DNA from: a virus
Reading direction: 5' to 3' (one strand)
DNA: 27,676 bases
Virus record (IMG/VR): IMGVR_UViG_3300021959_000305
Span: 1 to 27,676 of that record
Below, one piece after another: positions 2,398-27,676 of the stretch; the stretch's first letter is position 1, and every line of letters starts with the position of its first letter. Under the pieces are notes generated by a model. It saw only the letters and a program-made list of their open reading frames with translations. It ran no database searches and was not told the DNA's origin. A program made the position numbers and the translations under genes.

Positions 2398-5211
2398 ATG
2401 TTGAACCTCAAGACACGCACAGAGTATTCGTTCCGCAAGGCATACGGCCCCATACAAAAGGTTGTTGAGTGTTTTGAAGACAAGGCTGTTGGAATATGCG
2501 ACACAGGAACATGGGGCCACGTCGCATTCTCCAAGCACTGCAAAAAGTCTGGCATCAAGCCTGTGTTTGGTGTTGAGATATCTGTGGTCTTAGATGCCAA
2601 TGACCGTTCCAAACAAGCCGACAATCCGATGTCATTTCTGGCTTGCAACAATGATGGGTTGGCTGAGATATATGAGCTTGTGTCCCGCAGCACATCCAAA
2701 GAGAATTTCTACTATTATCCCCGCATAAGCTATTCAGACCTGTTCGATGTCAGCGAAAACGTGATAATGTTGTCCGGATCGCACCCAGACTGGTCGATGC
2801 TTCCTTTGACCAAAAAACACAATCTTTACGTCGAGCTTGGACCAATGAGCTCTCCGAAGTCAGCTGAGTGGGCTGCTCAAAAAGGCTTCAAGACCATAGC
2901 CACCAGCGACAACTTTTATCCCAAGCCATCGGACAAAAAGGCTTACGAGGTTTTGTGTGGCCGTAACCGTACAGATCGCAGTGGGCCCATGCACATTCTT
3001 GATGAGTGGGAGTGGAAGGCTGCTGTGCCTTGGGGGACGCAAGAAGCCATCGACAACACCTACAAAGTTGCAGAGCTTTGCAATGCTGATCTGCCAGTTG
3101 CGCAAATGATCGCATTCCATTCAAAAAAGACTTTGCGAGAGCTTTGCGAAGATGGTGCTCCGGCACTGGGCGTTGACCTGAAAGATCCAGTTTATGCGGC
3201 TAGGCTCAAGCGAGAGTTGGACATGATTGCCAGCAAGGAATTTGAGGATTATTTCTTTGTGATTGCTGACATGATTCGTTACGCCAAAGAGCACATGCTG
3301 GTTGGCCCTGCTCGTGGATCTTCTGCTGGTTCTTTGGTTTGTTACCTCACTGGCATAACTGACGTTGACCCGATTGTGCACGACCTGTTGTTCGAAAGAT
3401 TCATCGACATCACCCGAGAAGATCTGCCAGACATCGACATCGACTTTCAAGATGACCGCAGAGAGATGGTTTTCCAATATCTCAGGGACAAGTACGGTGC
3501 AGAAAAAGTTGCACACCTCGGGACGGTCAGCCGCTACAAAGCCAAGAGCACAATAGCAGAAGTGGCCAAAGAGCTTGGCATCCCCGCATGGGAAGTCAAT
3601 GACCTGAAAGGTGCGATCATCGAGCGCAGTGGTGGTGACTCTCGTGCTGCGTTCTGCATCCTCGACACATTCAACGACCTCGACATAGGCAAGGCTGTCT
3701 TGGAGAAATTCCCGCAGATGAAAGTTGCGGCAAAGATGGAGAACCACGCACGACACGTTGGTGTGCATGCTGCTGGCATTCTGGTGACTGAAGACCCAGT
3801 CAGCAAATATTGCTCCGTCAGTGCGCAGACTGGTGCAGCCCAGATAGACAAAAAAGACGCTGAAGACCTCAACCTGCTGAAGATTGATGCGTTGGGCCTC
3901 AGAACACTCTCCGTCCTGCAGGACGTTTTGGATCAGGTTGGTTGGGTGCGAGACCAGCTGATAAAGTTTCCTCTGGAAGACAAAAAGGCATTCGCAATAT
4001 TGAATGATGAGAAATATGCAGGCATATTCCAATTTGAAGGCTACGCGCTGCAAGGTGTGACCAGACAAATGAAAGTGCACAACTTTGAGGACGTTGCAGC
4101 CATCACTGCCCTAGCTCGTCCTGGACCACTCAACTCCGGTGGTACGAGCCAGTTTATCAAGCGGCACATAGGAGCAGCACCAGCGGAATATATGCACCCA
4201 ATGACAGAGCCGATCACAAAGGTGACTCATGGTGTTGTGGTCTATCAAGAACAAGTCATGACCATCGGTCGGGAGATAGGCAAGCTGAGTTGGGAAGATG
4301 TTTCATTCCTGCGCAAAGCAATGAGCAAGTCTTATGGCAAAGAATATTTTGACACGTTCTGGGAGAAGTTCAAGGTTGGAGCTGCTGAGAATGGCATACC
4401 GGAAGACGTCGCACAAACAATATGGGACAACATCAACACGATGGGATCTTGGGCGTTCAACCGCAGCCACGCAATATCTTACGGGATGGTCAGCTATTGG
4501 TGTTGTGTCCTGAAGAGCAGGTTCCCACTGGAGTATGCTGCTGCTTGCCTCCGTAATGTCAAGGATGATGACCAAGCTGTCAAGCTGTTGAGGGAAGTTG
4601 TGTCTGAGGGATTGACTTACAAGCCATTCGACAAATTCAAGTCCAAGGCCAACTGGTCAGTCCAAGACAACGAATTGATCGGTGGGTTGATAGGGATCAA
4701 AGGCATCGGCCCCAAAATGGCAGAAGACATAGAAAACAGGCGCAACCTGTCCCAACCATTGACCCCACGGCAAGAAACCCTGCTGAACACAGGCACGACA
4801 CCCTATGACGATATTTTTGAGTGCGAAAGGAGATTTGGCCACATCAAGAAAGATCCCAAAGCCCACAACATCGGCTCAGCCATAACAGACATCCAAGACC
4901 TAGATGGGGACAATCCAGGAACATTCGTTTTCTTCGGCAAGCTCAAAGAGAAGAATTTGAGGGATATGAATGAAGCTGTCAACTTGGCCAAACGTGGTGG
5001 TCGCAGAGTTGATCGGAATAACCTTTGGTTGAACGTAACAGCTGAAGATGACACTGGCGCAATCATCTGCACGGTCGACAGGTTCAAGTACCAAAAGATG
5101 GGCAAGCCCATTGTGGAGGATGGAAAGCTGGGTGAATGGTACTTATTCAAAGGTGTGTTGAAGAATGGGTTCAGAAAGATCTATCTAGAAAAGATACGTA
5201 AGATGTTGTAA
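2398..5211 (+). CDS. dnaE-like: Phage family C DNA polymerase (DNA polymerase III alpha-like)
   Basis: This 937-residue replicative polymerase synthesises DNA with the DnaE-type palm. Domains in order: an N-terminal PHP domain (about 1-220), then the palm with GPARGSSAGSL and PDIDIDF (catalytic Asp347 and Asp349) and the third Asp at 497 in LLKIDALGLRTL, then fingers with FQFEGYALQGV and ARPGPLNSGG, a helix-hairpin-helix region (GIKGIGPKMAEDI) and a C-terminal OB-type segment (about 840-937). Bacterial DnaE is about 1160 residues, so the tau-binding tail is missing. The PHP metal motif, normally LHxHSxYS, reads LKTRTEYS, so its His pair is lost. The AAAGGAAGG ribosome site is 10 bases upstream. 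With the adjacent exonuclease it forms a polymerase-proofreader pair. Confidence 0.95.
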   Translation: MLNLKTRTEYSFRKAYGPIQKVVECFEDKAVGICDTGTWGHVAFSKHCKKSGIKPVFGVEISVVLDANDRSKQADNPMSFLACNNDGLAEIYELVSRSTSKENFYYYPRISYSDLFDVSENVIMLSGSHPDWSMLPLTKKHNLYVELGPMSSPKSAEWAAQKGFKTIATSDNFYPKPSDKKAYEVLCGRNRTDRSGPMHILDEWEWKAAVPWGTQEAIDNTYKVAELCNADLPVAQMIAFHSKKTLRELCEDGAPALGVDLKDPVYAARLKRELDMIASKEFEDYFFVIADMIRYAKEHMLVGPARGSSAGSLVCYLTGITDVDPIVHDLLFERFIDITREDLPDIDIDFQDDRREMVFQYLRDKYGAEKVAHLGTVSRYKAKSTIAEVAKELGIPAWEVNDLKGAIIERSGGDSRAAFCILDTFNDLDIGKAVLEKFPQMKVAAKMENHARHVGVHAAGILVTEDPVSKYCSVSAQTGAAQIDKKDAEDLNLLKIDALGLRTLSVLQDVLDQVGWVRDQLIKFPLEDKKAFAILNDEKYAGIFQFEGYALQGVTRQMKVHNFEDVAAITALARPGPLNSGGTSQFIKRHIGAAPAEYMHPMTEPITKVTHGVVVYQEQVMTIGREIGKLSWEDVSFLRKAMSKSYGKEYFDTFWEKFKVGAAENGIPEDVAQTIWDNINTMGSWAFNRSHAISYGMVSYWCCVLKSRFPLEYAAACLRNVKDDDQAVKLLREVVSEGLTYKPFDKFKSKANWSVQDNELIGGLIGIKGIGPKMAEDIENRRNLSQPLTPRQETLLNTGTTPYDDIFECERRFGHIKKDPKAHNIGSAITDIQDLDGDNPGTFVFFGKLKEKNLRDMNEAVNLAKRGGRRVDRNNLWLNVTAEDDTGAIICTVDRFKYQKMGKPIVEDGKLGEWYLFKGVLKNGFRKIYLEKIRKML

Positions 5212-25848: not shown

Positions 25849-27676
25849 TCAATTCCATGTTCCTTCGCCATAGCCACCTTGACCCCAAGTTGTTATCAGC
25901 AAGACAGAAGTCGTTCCAACGCCGCCTGTGCCGTTTACACCAGATGGATGTGGCCTGCCAGCAATGTCTCCCCAAGTTCCATCGCCCCACGTTCCAACAC
26001 CCCAGCCAAACTCTTCTTCTGGAACGGCACTTCCAACGCCGCCTGTGCCACCAACCCCAGTTTCAACGATTGATAGCTCTGGTGTTTCTGATCCAACTGC
26101 TCCTGTGCCACTGACGCCAGTTTCTGTTATAATCGCATCCGCTTGGATGCTTTCATTACCAACACCACCTGTTCCAGACACACCAACTTCAACGATTTCT
26201 AGCTGAATTGCTTCAGCGCCTACGCCGCCTGTTCCAGAAACTCCAGTAGTTTCTTCAGTTCCTTCTTCAGTTATTGTGCCAACACCACCTGTGCCAGAAA
26301 CGCCTGATAAGGCTGCTGATGATATATCAATGTTTTCTGATCCGACCCCTCCAGAGCCAGAAACTCCATTTTGGCTTGGGAAGAGTTGAACAATTTCTGC
26401 ACCAACCGCTCCTGTGCCAGCAAGACCAGTGGAATTTTTGTTCGTCTCTATTGCCTCTGATCCAGTTTCACCATCACCAGAAACTCCAGAAACGCCAGTT
26501 TGCAAATCAGCAATATATATCGAATTTCCGATTGCACCCGCGCCACCAACCCCAGTTTCATTAATTGATATTTCAAGAGCTTCAACGCCAACCGCGCCTG
26601 TACCACCACCACCAGAAACTCCGCTTGGGTGTGCGACAGGAATTTCAACACCAACACCACCGCTTCCAGCCACGCCAGATTGAGGTTTGGTTAATTCAAA
26701 GCTAGACGTTCCAACACCGCCATTGCCAGCCAACCCAGAAACAGCTTCTGACATTTCTGGAGTTTCTGCACCGATTGCTCCTGTTCCAGAGACCCCAGTC
26801 GCATCTTCAGTGCCTTCTTCGGTTATGTTTCCAACACCGCCTGTGCTTCCAACGCCAGTTTCAGCAATTGATATCTCTGGTGTTTCAGAGCCTACATCAC
26901 CATTTCCAGATACACCATTTGGTGTTGGCATGACTGATGGAGTTTCAACGCCGACTGATCCTGTGCCACCGCTTGCAGAAACTCCTGTCACATGAACAGC
27001 AGGAATTTCATCACCAACACCACCAACGCCAGCCACTCCTGTTAGTGATGTATTTTCTAATTCTATGGAAACAGAAGCAAATGGTGGTGTGTTAGCCGTT
27101 CCCCCCATTCCACTATGTACCGAACAATAATAATAAAGTGTCGGTGCAGAATTTGCGACAACTATCTGGGTGTAAGCATTTGCCTGTCCCGGCGTTCCTG
27201 ACGTTGTCACTCCTGTGGTGTATTCACTTCCCCCAGCGTGCGTTCCGTTTGGAGTGGATGAGAACCTGAGTGGATGCCCAGAATTGCTGTTTGCTGATTG
27301 ATCAAAATAATACGTTCTGCTTTCCATCAATTCCAGCGTGTCTTGCTGAACGCCAGCGATGAAGTATTTGTTTGCCCCGCCAACATTTTGAACCGTCACT
27401 GCCAGCGTCACAACTTGGGCAGGATCAACAGCAACACCGCCAGTTCCAGAGATACCACTTACAGCAGGATCAAGCTGAACAATTTCATCCCCAATTCCTC
27501 CTGAACCACCAACGCCATTTACATCTAAATTTGTGTTAATAATTAAAGATGAAAGTCCAGAAAACGCTGTGCCAGAAATTCCAACATTAGTTGTTAATCT
27601 GCGATCAGCAAATATGTCGTAATTAAATCCAATAAATATTTCTACATTTTCTGGGTCGTTGTCTGGCCGTGGATTA
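25849..27676 (-). CDS. Repeat-rich tail fibre with cupredoxin-like domain (5' end outside window)
   Basis: The frame remains open to the right edge, so the GTG at 27411 is internal and at least 88 further residues precede it (ENVEIFIGFNYDIFADRR and so on); the true start lies outside. About 608 residues are visible. Two short Gly/Val repeats (GVGGSGGIGDE, SGISGTGG) come first, then a cupredoxin-like domain at 27090-27411, then about 18 tandem Gly/Val repeats of roughly 20 residues (TGVSGTGGVGxExxE type), and a Trp/Gly end (GWGVGTWGDGTWG). The build suggests an extended virion fibre or stalk. Irregular repeat lengths and synonymous divergence argue against recent slippage. It is first in the visible part of the late operon. 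Confidence 0.7.
   Translation of the reverse strand, partial: NPRPDNDPENVEIFIGFNYDIFADRRLTTNVGISGTAFSGLSSLIINTNLDVNGVGGSGGIGDEIVQLDPAVSGISGTGGVAVDPAQVVTLAVTVQNVGGANKYFIAGVQQDTLELMESRTYYFDQSANSNSGHPLRFSSTPNGTHAGGSEYTTGVTTSGTPGQANAYTQIVVANSAPTLYYYCSVHSGMGGTANTPPFASVSIELENTSLTGVAGVGGVGDEIPAVHVTGVSASGGTGSVGVETPSVMPTPNGVSGNGDVGSETPEISIAETGVGSTGGVGNITEEGTEDATGVSGTGAIGAETPEMSEAVSGLAGNGGVGTSSFELTKPQSGVAGSGGVGVEIPVAHPSGVSGGGGTGAVGVEALEISINETGVGGAGAIGNSIYIADLQTGVSGVSGDGETGSEAIETNKNSTGLAGTGAVGAEIVQLFPSQNGVSGSGGVGSENIDISSAALSGVSGTGGVGTITEEGTEETTGVSGTGGVGAEAIQLEIVEVGVSGTGGVGNESIQADAIITETGVSGTGAVGSETPELSIVETGVGGTGGVGSAVPEEEFGWGVGTWGDGTWGDIAGRPHPSGVNGTGGVGTTSVLLITTWGQGGYGEGTWN
25858..27060 (-). repeat. Tandem Gly/Val-rich ~60-base coding repeats (about 18 copies)
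   Basis: Degenerate in-frame repeats, each encoding T/S-G-V-S/G-G-T/N-G-G-V-G followed by an acidic variable tail of about 8-12 residues; unit lengths range from about 18 to 24 residues, with longer tails near the 3' end. A higher-order duplication is visible: an EEGTE-containing unit occurs near 26253-26289 and again near 26805-26840, 552 bases apart (184 codons, about nine units). Third-position differences between copies suggest old expansion. The repeats extend the fibre or stalk. Confidence 0.8.
27090..27411 (-). other. Cupredoxin-like domain with type-1 copper ligand set
   Basis: Within the repeat fibre, strands KYFIAGVQQDTLELMESRTY, an SGHPLRF segment, and LYYYCSVHSGMGG form a plastocyanin-like beta sandwich. 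Potential copper ligands are His (codon 27274-27276), then Cys (27124-27126), His (27115-27117) and Met (27106-27108), the last three as C-x2-H-x2-M. This is the classical His-Cys-His-Met set in order. Cupredoxins normally carry electrons; here the domain sits inside a structural protein, so copper could stabilise the fold, bind host surface groups or be lost. The TTGVTTSGTPG linker is also a common feature of this phage domain. Confidence 0.65.

Follow-up and report, generated by a model that had tools for sequence, protein, structure and literature searches.

Copper proteins encoded by marine phages have a precedent in the plastocyanin auxiliary metabolic genes (petE) of cyanophages, whose product, an electron carrier of host origin, is made inside infected cells and forms no part of the virion. 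Metals in the tail fibres themselves also have a precedent, since the entry of phages by way of an iron Trojan horse is a published hypothesis, and T4 gp37-type sites have, like the domain described here, metal ligands in tail fibres and have been proposed for marine phages, although they consist of repeated His-x-His motifs, bind iron and have a fold unrelated to that of the phage domain (PMC11705849). Cupredoxins as such are known already, and one phage example, a fibre of P-SSM2, could be flagged by automatic annotation. What is new is the predicted use, by many marine phages, of a cupredoxin domain that has all the type-1 ligands as a module of their virions; it is counted as new because no paper found in the open-access literature connects cupredoxins or blue copper with virions or with the fibres of phages.

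The window (the whole stretch of viral DNA that was analysed, 27,676 nucleotides) ends in a minus-strand ORF that is open at its edge and reads ...NSGHPLRFSSTPNGTHAGGSEYTTGV...APTLYYYCSVHSGMGGTANTP...; complete relatives have about 76 additional in-frame residues upstream, and the full protein begins MAKYARGKKSQAISDRSG. Based on homology and gene position, the ORF is predicted to be a tail-fibre-type protein of a marine tailed phage: it matches PHROG tail families, there are structural neighbours, and its relatives include gp9 and virion proteins. Most of the PHROG profiles that match the domain itself describe tail components, among them tail fibres, the baseplate wedge and the gp9-type fibre connector. 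The features of the ORF are as follows.

25849 to 27675, minus strand: tail-fibre-type repeat protein, 608 residues, N-terminus lost at the contig end (PHROG tail fibre families phrog_693 and phrog_30742)
27430 to 27582, minus strand: N-terminal Gly/Val repeat units ahead of the domain (ORF sequence)
27073 to 27420, minus strand: predicted cupredoxin-fold domain, ORF residues 86-201 (AlphaFold2, Foldseek against PDB, homologue alignment)
27274 to 27276, minus strand: His134, putative ligand 1 (SGHPLRF), directly ahead of model strand 53-56
27124 to 27126, minus strand: Cys184, putative ligand 2, final residue of model strand 97-101
27115 to 27117, minus strand: His187, putative ligand 3 (ORF sequence, homologue alignment)
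27106 to 27108, minus strand: Met190, putative ligand 4, axial position (ORF sequence, homologue alignment)
25906 to 27039, minus strand: GVSGTGGVG-type array of roughly 20-residue repeats after the domain, with a WGxGTWGDGTWG segment near its end

An earlier note on this DNA had picked out residues in the order His...Cys-x2-His-x2-Met within a domain flanked by Gly/Val repeats, and both observations held: the residues are H134, C184, H187 and M190, and units of the GV(S/A)G-GGVG kind lie on either side. The start it had quoted, 27411, is no more than an internal GTG that occurs there by chance, and the domain itself extends from about 27420 to 27073. Cys184 is the sole cysteine of the 608-residue ORF, and the array behind the domain contains 14 matches to one repeat pattern, mostly spaced about 20 residues apart. 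A structure prediction of the whole ORF, from 14 sequences (the window and 13 close homologues), reached a pLDDT of 26, so no claim is made on the repeats or on an oligomer. Elsewhere in the window there are genes for a DNA polymerase III alpha subunit of the bacterial type (2398-5211; PHP, alpha NTPase and finger domains) and, adjoining it, an RNase T-type exonuclease (1861-2397), as well as one for a short-chain dehydrogenase, possibly a metabolic gene (719-1396).

Modelled on its own from 62 sequences (the window and 61 homologues), the domain was predicted by AlphaFold2 to be a confident beta-sandwich (pLDDT 94.9, pTM 0.87) with eight strands (residues 5-15, 18-23, 38-42, 53-56, 73-76, 85-89, 97-101 and 108-112), which places the model in the cupredoxin fold, a Greek-key beta-sandwich of 7-8 strands. 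The ligands are His51 (H134), Cys101 (C184), His104 (H187) and Met107 (M190) in model numbering. As is typical of type-1 copper sites, the first His of the model stands before a middle strand, just ahead of residues 53-56, and the Cys closes the penultimate strand (97-101), while His104 and Met107 are located in the loop preceding the final strand (108-112); in the model, strand order and ligand placement match the arrangement of plastocyanin. A Foldseek search of the PDB produced 10 matches at E<=1e-3, all of them cupredoxin-fold copper proteins, namely the nitrite reductase (CuNIR) of Hyphomicrobium, rusticyanin and the multicopper oxidases McoA and CueO; the matches are of moderate quality (TMq 0.47-0.61), and the aligned rmsd is high (4.7-7.3 A). 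The sandwich anticipated in the earlier note was therefore returned by the prediction, with copper proteins as its best solved relatives.

The window copy had no Pfam or NCBIfam match, and the Pfam profile for plastocyanin-like proteins, PF00127 (Copper-bind), was passed only by distant members of the family and not by the window copy: the P-SSM2 fibre exceeded the cut-off (23.3 vs 21.2 bits), as did HPFYIK-type domains from two bacterial genomes, L401 and L399 (scores of 32.1 and 34.3 bits). These two, from a marine Bacteroidetes (L401) and a Prochlorococcus single-cell genome (L399), look intermediate between plastocyanin and the phage type, and the Copper-bind domain of L399 has the plastocyanin loop, C-x2-H-x4-M. 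Broad profiles of the family placed copper proteins first when searched against the PDB (best E 3.4e-5 for A1, an alignment too diverse for use in contig scans, and 5e-6 for A3), the matches including nitrite reductases, rusticyanin, plastocyanins and amicyanins, and even a single phage-type domain (L194) had 43 matches there, weak ones (best E 0.009) and nearly all to copper proteins. Neither the window copy alone nor A2, the profile of its near relatives, retrieved cupredoxins convincingly; the link is drawn from the fold together with the distant members. Alignment with hhalign to plastocyanins put the H, C and H of the domain in register with the H, C and H of plastocyanin. Weak matches of 15 of the 62 homologous domains in A3 to Pfam PF25489 (At5g54830-like domain) hint at a plant relative.

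The 320 unique domains were reduced to 100 representatives less than 75% identical, and all four ligands were kept in 90 of these, with the caveat that some of the homologue scans used peptide patterns partly containing the ligand loop. Met, the second His and the Cys rank first, second and third in conservation among the 94 model columns (0.99, 0.98 and 0.97) and the first His ranks fifth (0.94), by which a chance motif was ruled out. One representative has His in place of Met; the other nine are without the Cys and second His jointly, seven of them also without the Met, with three of the nine retaining the first His and two retaining only the Met (N-A-Q-M and F-S-Q-M). In no case was the Cys alone or the second His alone lost, and the concern that homologues might lose either freely, raised in the earlier note, can be set aside. 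Representatives from plain tblastn phage matches (12 of 19 with all four ligands, and seven paralogue copies without ligands) displayed the same loss en bloc as the pattern-based set. Among cyanophage fibres, five paralogues (L093, L097, L098, L100 and L101) have retained the domain, while the whole Cys-His-Met loop has gone from them in one piece. Both synonymous codons occur for His (CAT/CAC) and for Cys (TGT/TGC), which places the constraint at the level of the protein. Of the 90 representatives that bear the ligands, 88 have the loop spacing C-x2-H-x2-M; the remaining two have one added residue (C-x2-H-x3-M) and still keep the Met. Pro follows the first His (H-P) in 85 of the 90. With a single Cys in 83 of the 90 domains, an internal disulfide was ruled out as the cause of its conservation, and H146, a further His that the window copy has within THAGGSEY, gained no support as a ligand, being common to only 27 of the 90 and gapped in 46.

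The impression recorded in the earlier note that similar domains occur in other marine phages was confirmed by tblastn over 50,697 phage records, at least 331 of which have the domain. Almost all carriers are phages of Synechococcus or Prochlorococcus, the others including pelagiphages, Methylophilales phages and marine contigs; at the sensitivity of that tally there were no enteric phages among them, and no match to the domain was found in plasmids. A related type of domain is present in one Actinomycetia phage, and Pithovirus proteins came up in addition when models of viral proteins were searched by fold. The carrier proteins are gp9 baseplate wedge tail-fibre connectors, proximal subunits of long tail fibres, fibres and other virion proteins, several of which bear two or three copies of the domain. 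The carrier protein of S-TIM61 adjoins head genes, one virion structural protein is encoded close to a portal gene, and the S-SCSM1 record itself labels the carrier a virion protein; the S-SCSM1 paper reports a mass-spectrometric virion proteome (PMC9602691). Outside phages, a giant surface protein of a Bacteroidetes (L375:715-12282; more than 3856 residues, with DUF285, FG-GAP and Ig-like repeats) has one phage-type domain with the HCHM set, and similar matches were seen in two further Bacteroidetes genomes (L372 and L376). The isolate Vibrio thalassae CECT8203 has the domain in an ORF of 1262 residues (L387) and is a possible laboratory system.

Computation thus establishes the presence of the domain, its fold prediction, the near-invariance and block loss of its ligands, and its spread through virion proteins. 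From these we consider it probable that the domain is a compact cupredoxin with bound copper, acting as a structural or adhesive knob that the metal stabilises; taken on its own, the stabilising or adhesive role has about an even chance of being correct. The cupredoxin domain would be inserted near the N-terminal end of the Gly/Val-repeat fibre protein, where His134, Cys184 and His187, together with the axial Met190, would form a putative type-1-like site, most likely holding one copper ion per domain. An amicyanin-like C-x2-H-x2-M loop would close this site beside the last strand, the copper would lock the ligand loop, and the whole might have been copied between virion proteins as a knob or adhesion module. 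Behind the first His, the phage domain has Pro where the aligned plastocyanin-type sequences have Asn; this exchange would abolish a known second-shell hydrogen bond to the Cys sulfur and may tilt the site towards Cu(I). The variety of carrier proteins and of hosts speaks against a single specific electron-transfer partner; electron transfer and copper scavenging, both suggested in the earlier note, are conjectural uses.

Several other explanations have to be weighed against a copper-stabilised knob. Copper could be used for adsorption, with the loaded domain being recognised by a copper-uptake or other outer-membrane receptor of the host; the location of the domain in fibres and the gp9 fibre connector, and the oligotrophic marine hosts that the carrier phages infect, are consistent with this, and it might be viewed as the copper counterpart of the iron Trojan-horse hypothesis (PMC11705849). 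However, the domain is not confined to receptor-binding tips, since baseplate gp9 and proteins encoded next to head genes (S-TIM61) bear it too, and hosts as diverse as cyanobacteria, SAR11 and OM43 are not known to share a receptor, making this use of copper unlikely. A site that holds Zn, Fe or Ni in the particle, with copper only the metal bound by its ancestor, is likewise unlikely: sites made of Cys and two His can bind Zn or Ni in vitro and free copper is very low in seawater, but the most conserved residue of all is the Met, which fits copper and not zinc, and the solved relatives with significant fold scores are copper proteins only.

It could also be argued that no metal is involved and that the domain is an Ig-like spacer whose residues are kept for folding or by recent common descent. 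The nine representatives that lack the Cys and second His are still recognisable, which suggests that the fold is usable, and probably can do, without metal; it follows that the metal must confer something worth keeping in the other lineages. On the other side, mean pairwise identity among the ligand bearers is only 0.39, as against ligand conservation of 94-99%, the ligands disappear together and not singly, and the codons vary synonymously; we regard the spacer as improbable. Least credible, to the point of being very improbable, is the idea that the pattern resembles the Tyr-Tyr-Cys motif of immunoglobulin domains by chance. Antibody chains were weakly matched by A2 (E 0.085 or worse), and some by A3, but these weak profile matches are all there is to it: no antibody was among the 50 fold matches listed, the partner Cys of the Ig disulfide is absent, and the His and Met ligands are near-invariant. 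Copper binding by a structural or adhesive knob is accordingly retained as the best explanation.

Hundreds of marine phages have the domain, so copper may be present in their particles, and since carrier phages, among them S-SCSM1, S-TIM5 and S-RIM2, are in culture the question is directly testable. Should the sites be occupied by copper, viruses that rank among the most abundant in the sea have a redox-active trace metal built into the apparatus with which they adsorb. Copper would then stand beside iron as a metal of phages, with a bearing on host recognition and virion stability, and also on marine copper chemistry, in which the strong copper ligands are only partly identified. Taken to its furthest extent, the particles of many marine cyanophages and pelagiphages would be assemblies of copper metalloproteins, whose fibres and baseplate connectors hold type-1-like Cu(I) sites by the tens that aid adsorption, and among the strong organic copper ligands of seawater virions would form a pool that has so far gone uncounted, a proposal that we put forward as a long shot.

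Measured against the cupredoxins, the description of the site as plastocyanin-like in the earlier note is right in part. Plastocyanin and its Pfam family PF00127 share with the phage domain the predicted fold, the four ligands with H/C/H in register, and the order and placement of those ligands, whereas the loop of plastocyanin (C-x2-H-x4-M) is two residues longer, and the His-Asn at the first ligand, invariant in the plastocyanin-type sequences aligned here, is mostly His-Pro in phage domains; by both features the domain is not a plastocyanin proper. Rusticyanin, among the best fold and profile matches, likewise has no Asn after its first ligand, which is followed by Ser (GHSFDI) in a sequence near to the phage GHPxRF/I, but it is longer than the phage domain and is a periplasmic electron carrier of iron oxidisers. 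In ligand order, spacing and the presence of the last strand after the loop, the domain is like amicyanin, other C-x2-H-x2-M cupredoxins and the cupredoxin domain of a CuNIR (6hbe), with the difference that amicyanin-type cupredoxins are electron carriers, small and soluble or fused to enzymes, whereas the phage domain is a module of virion proteins.
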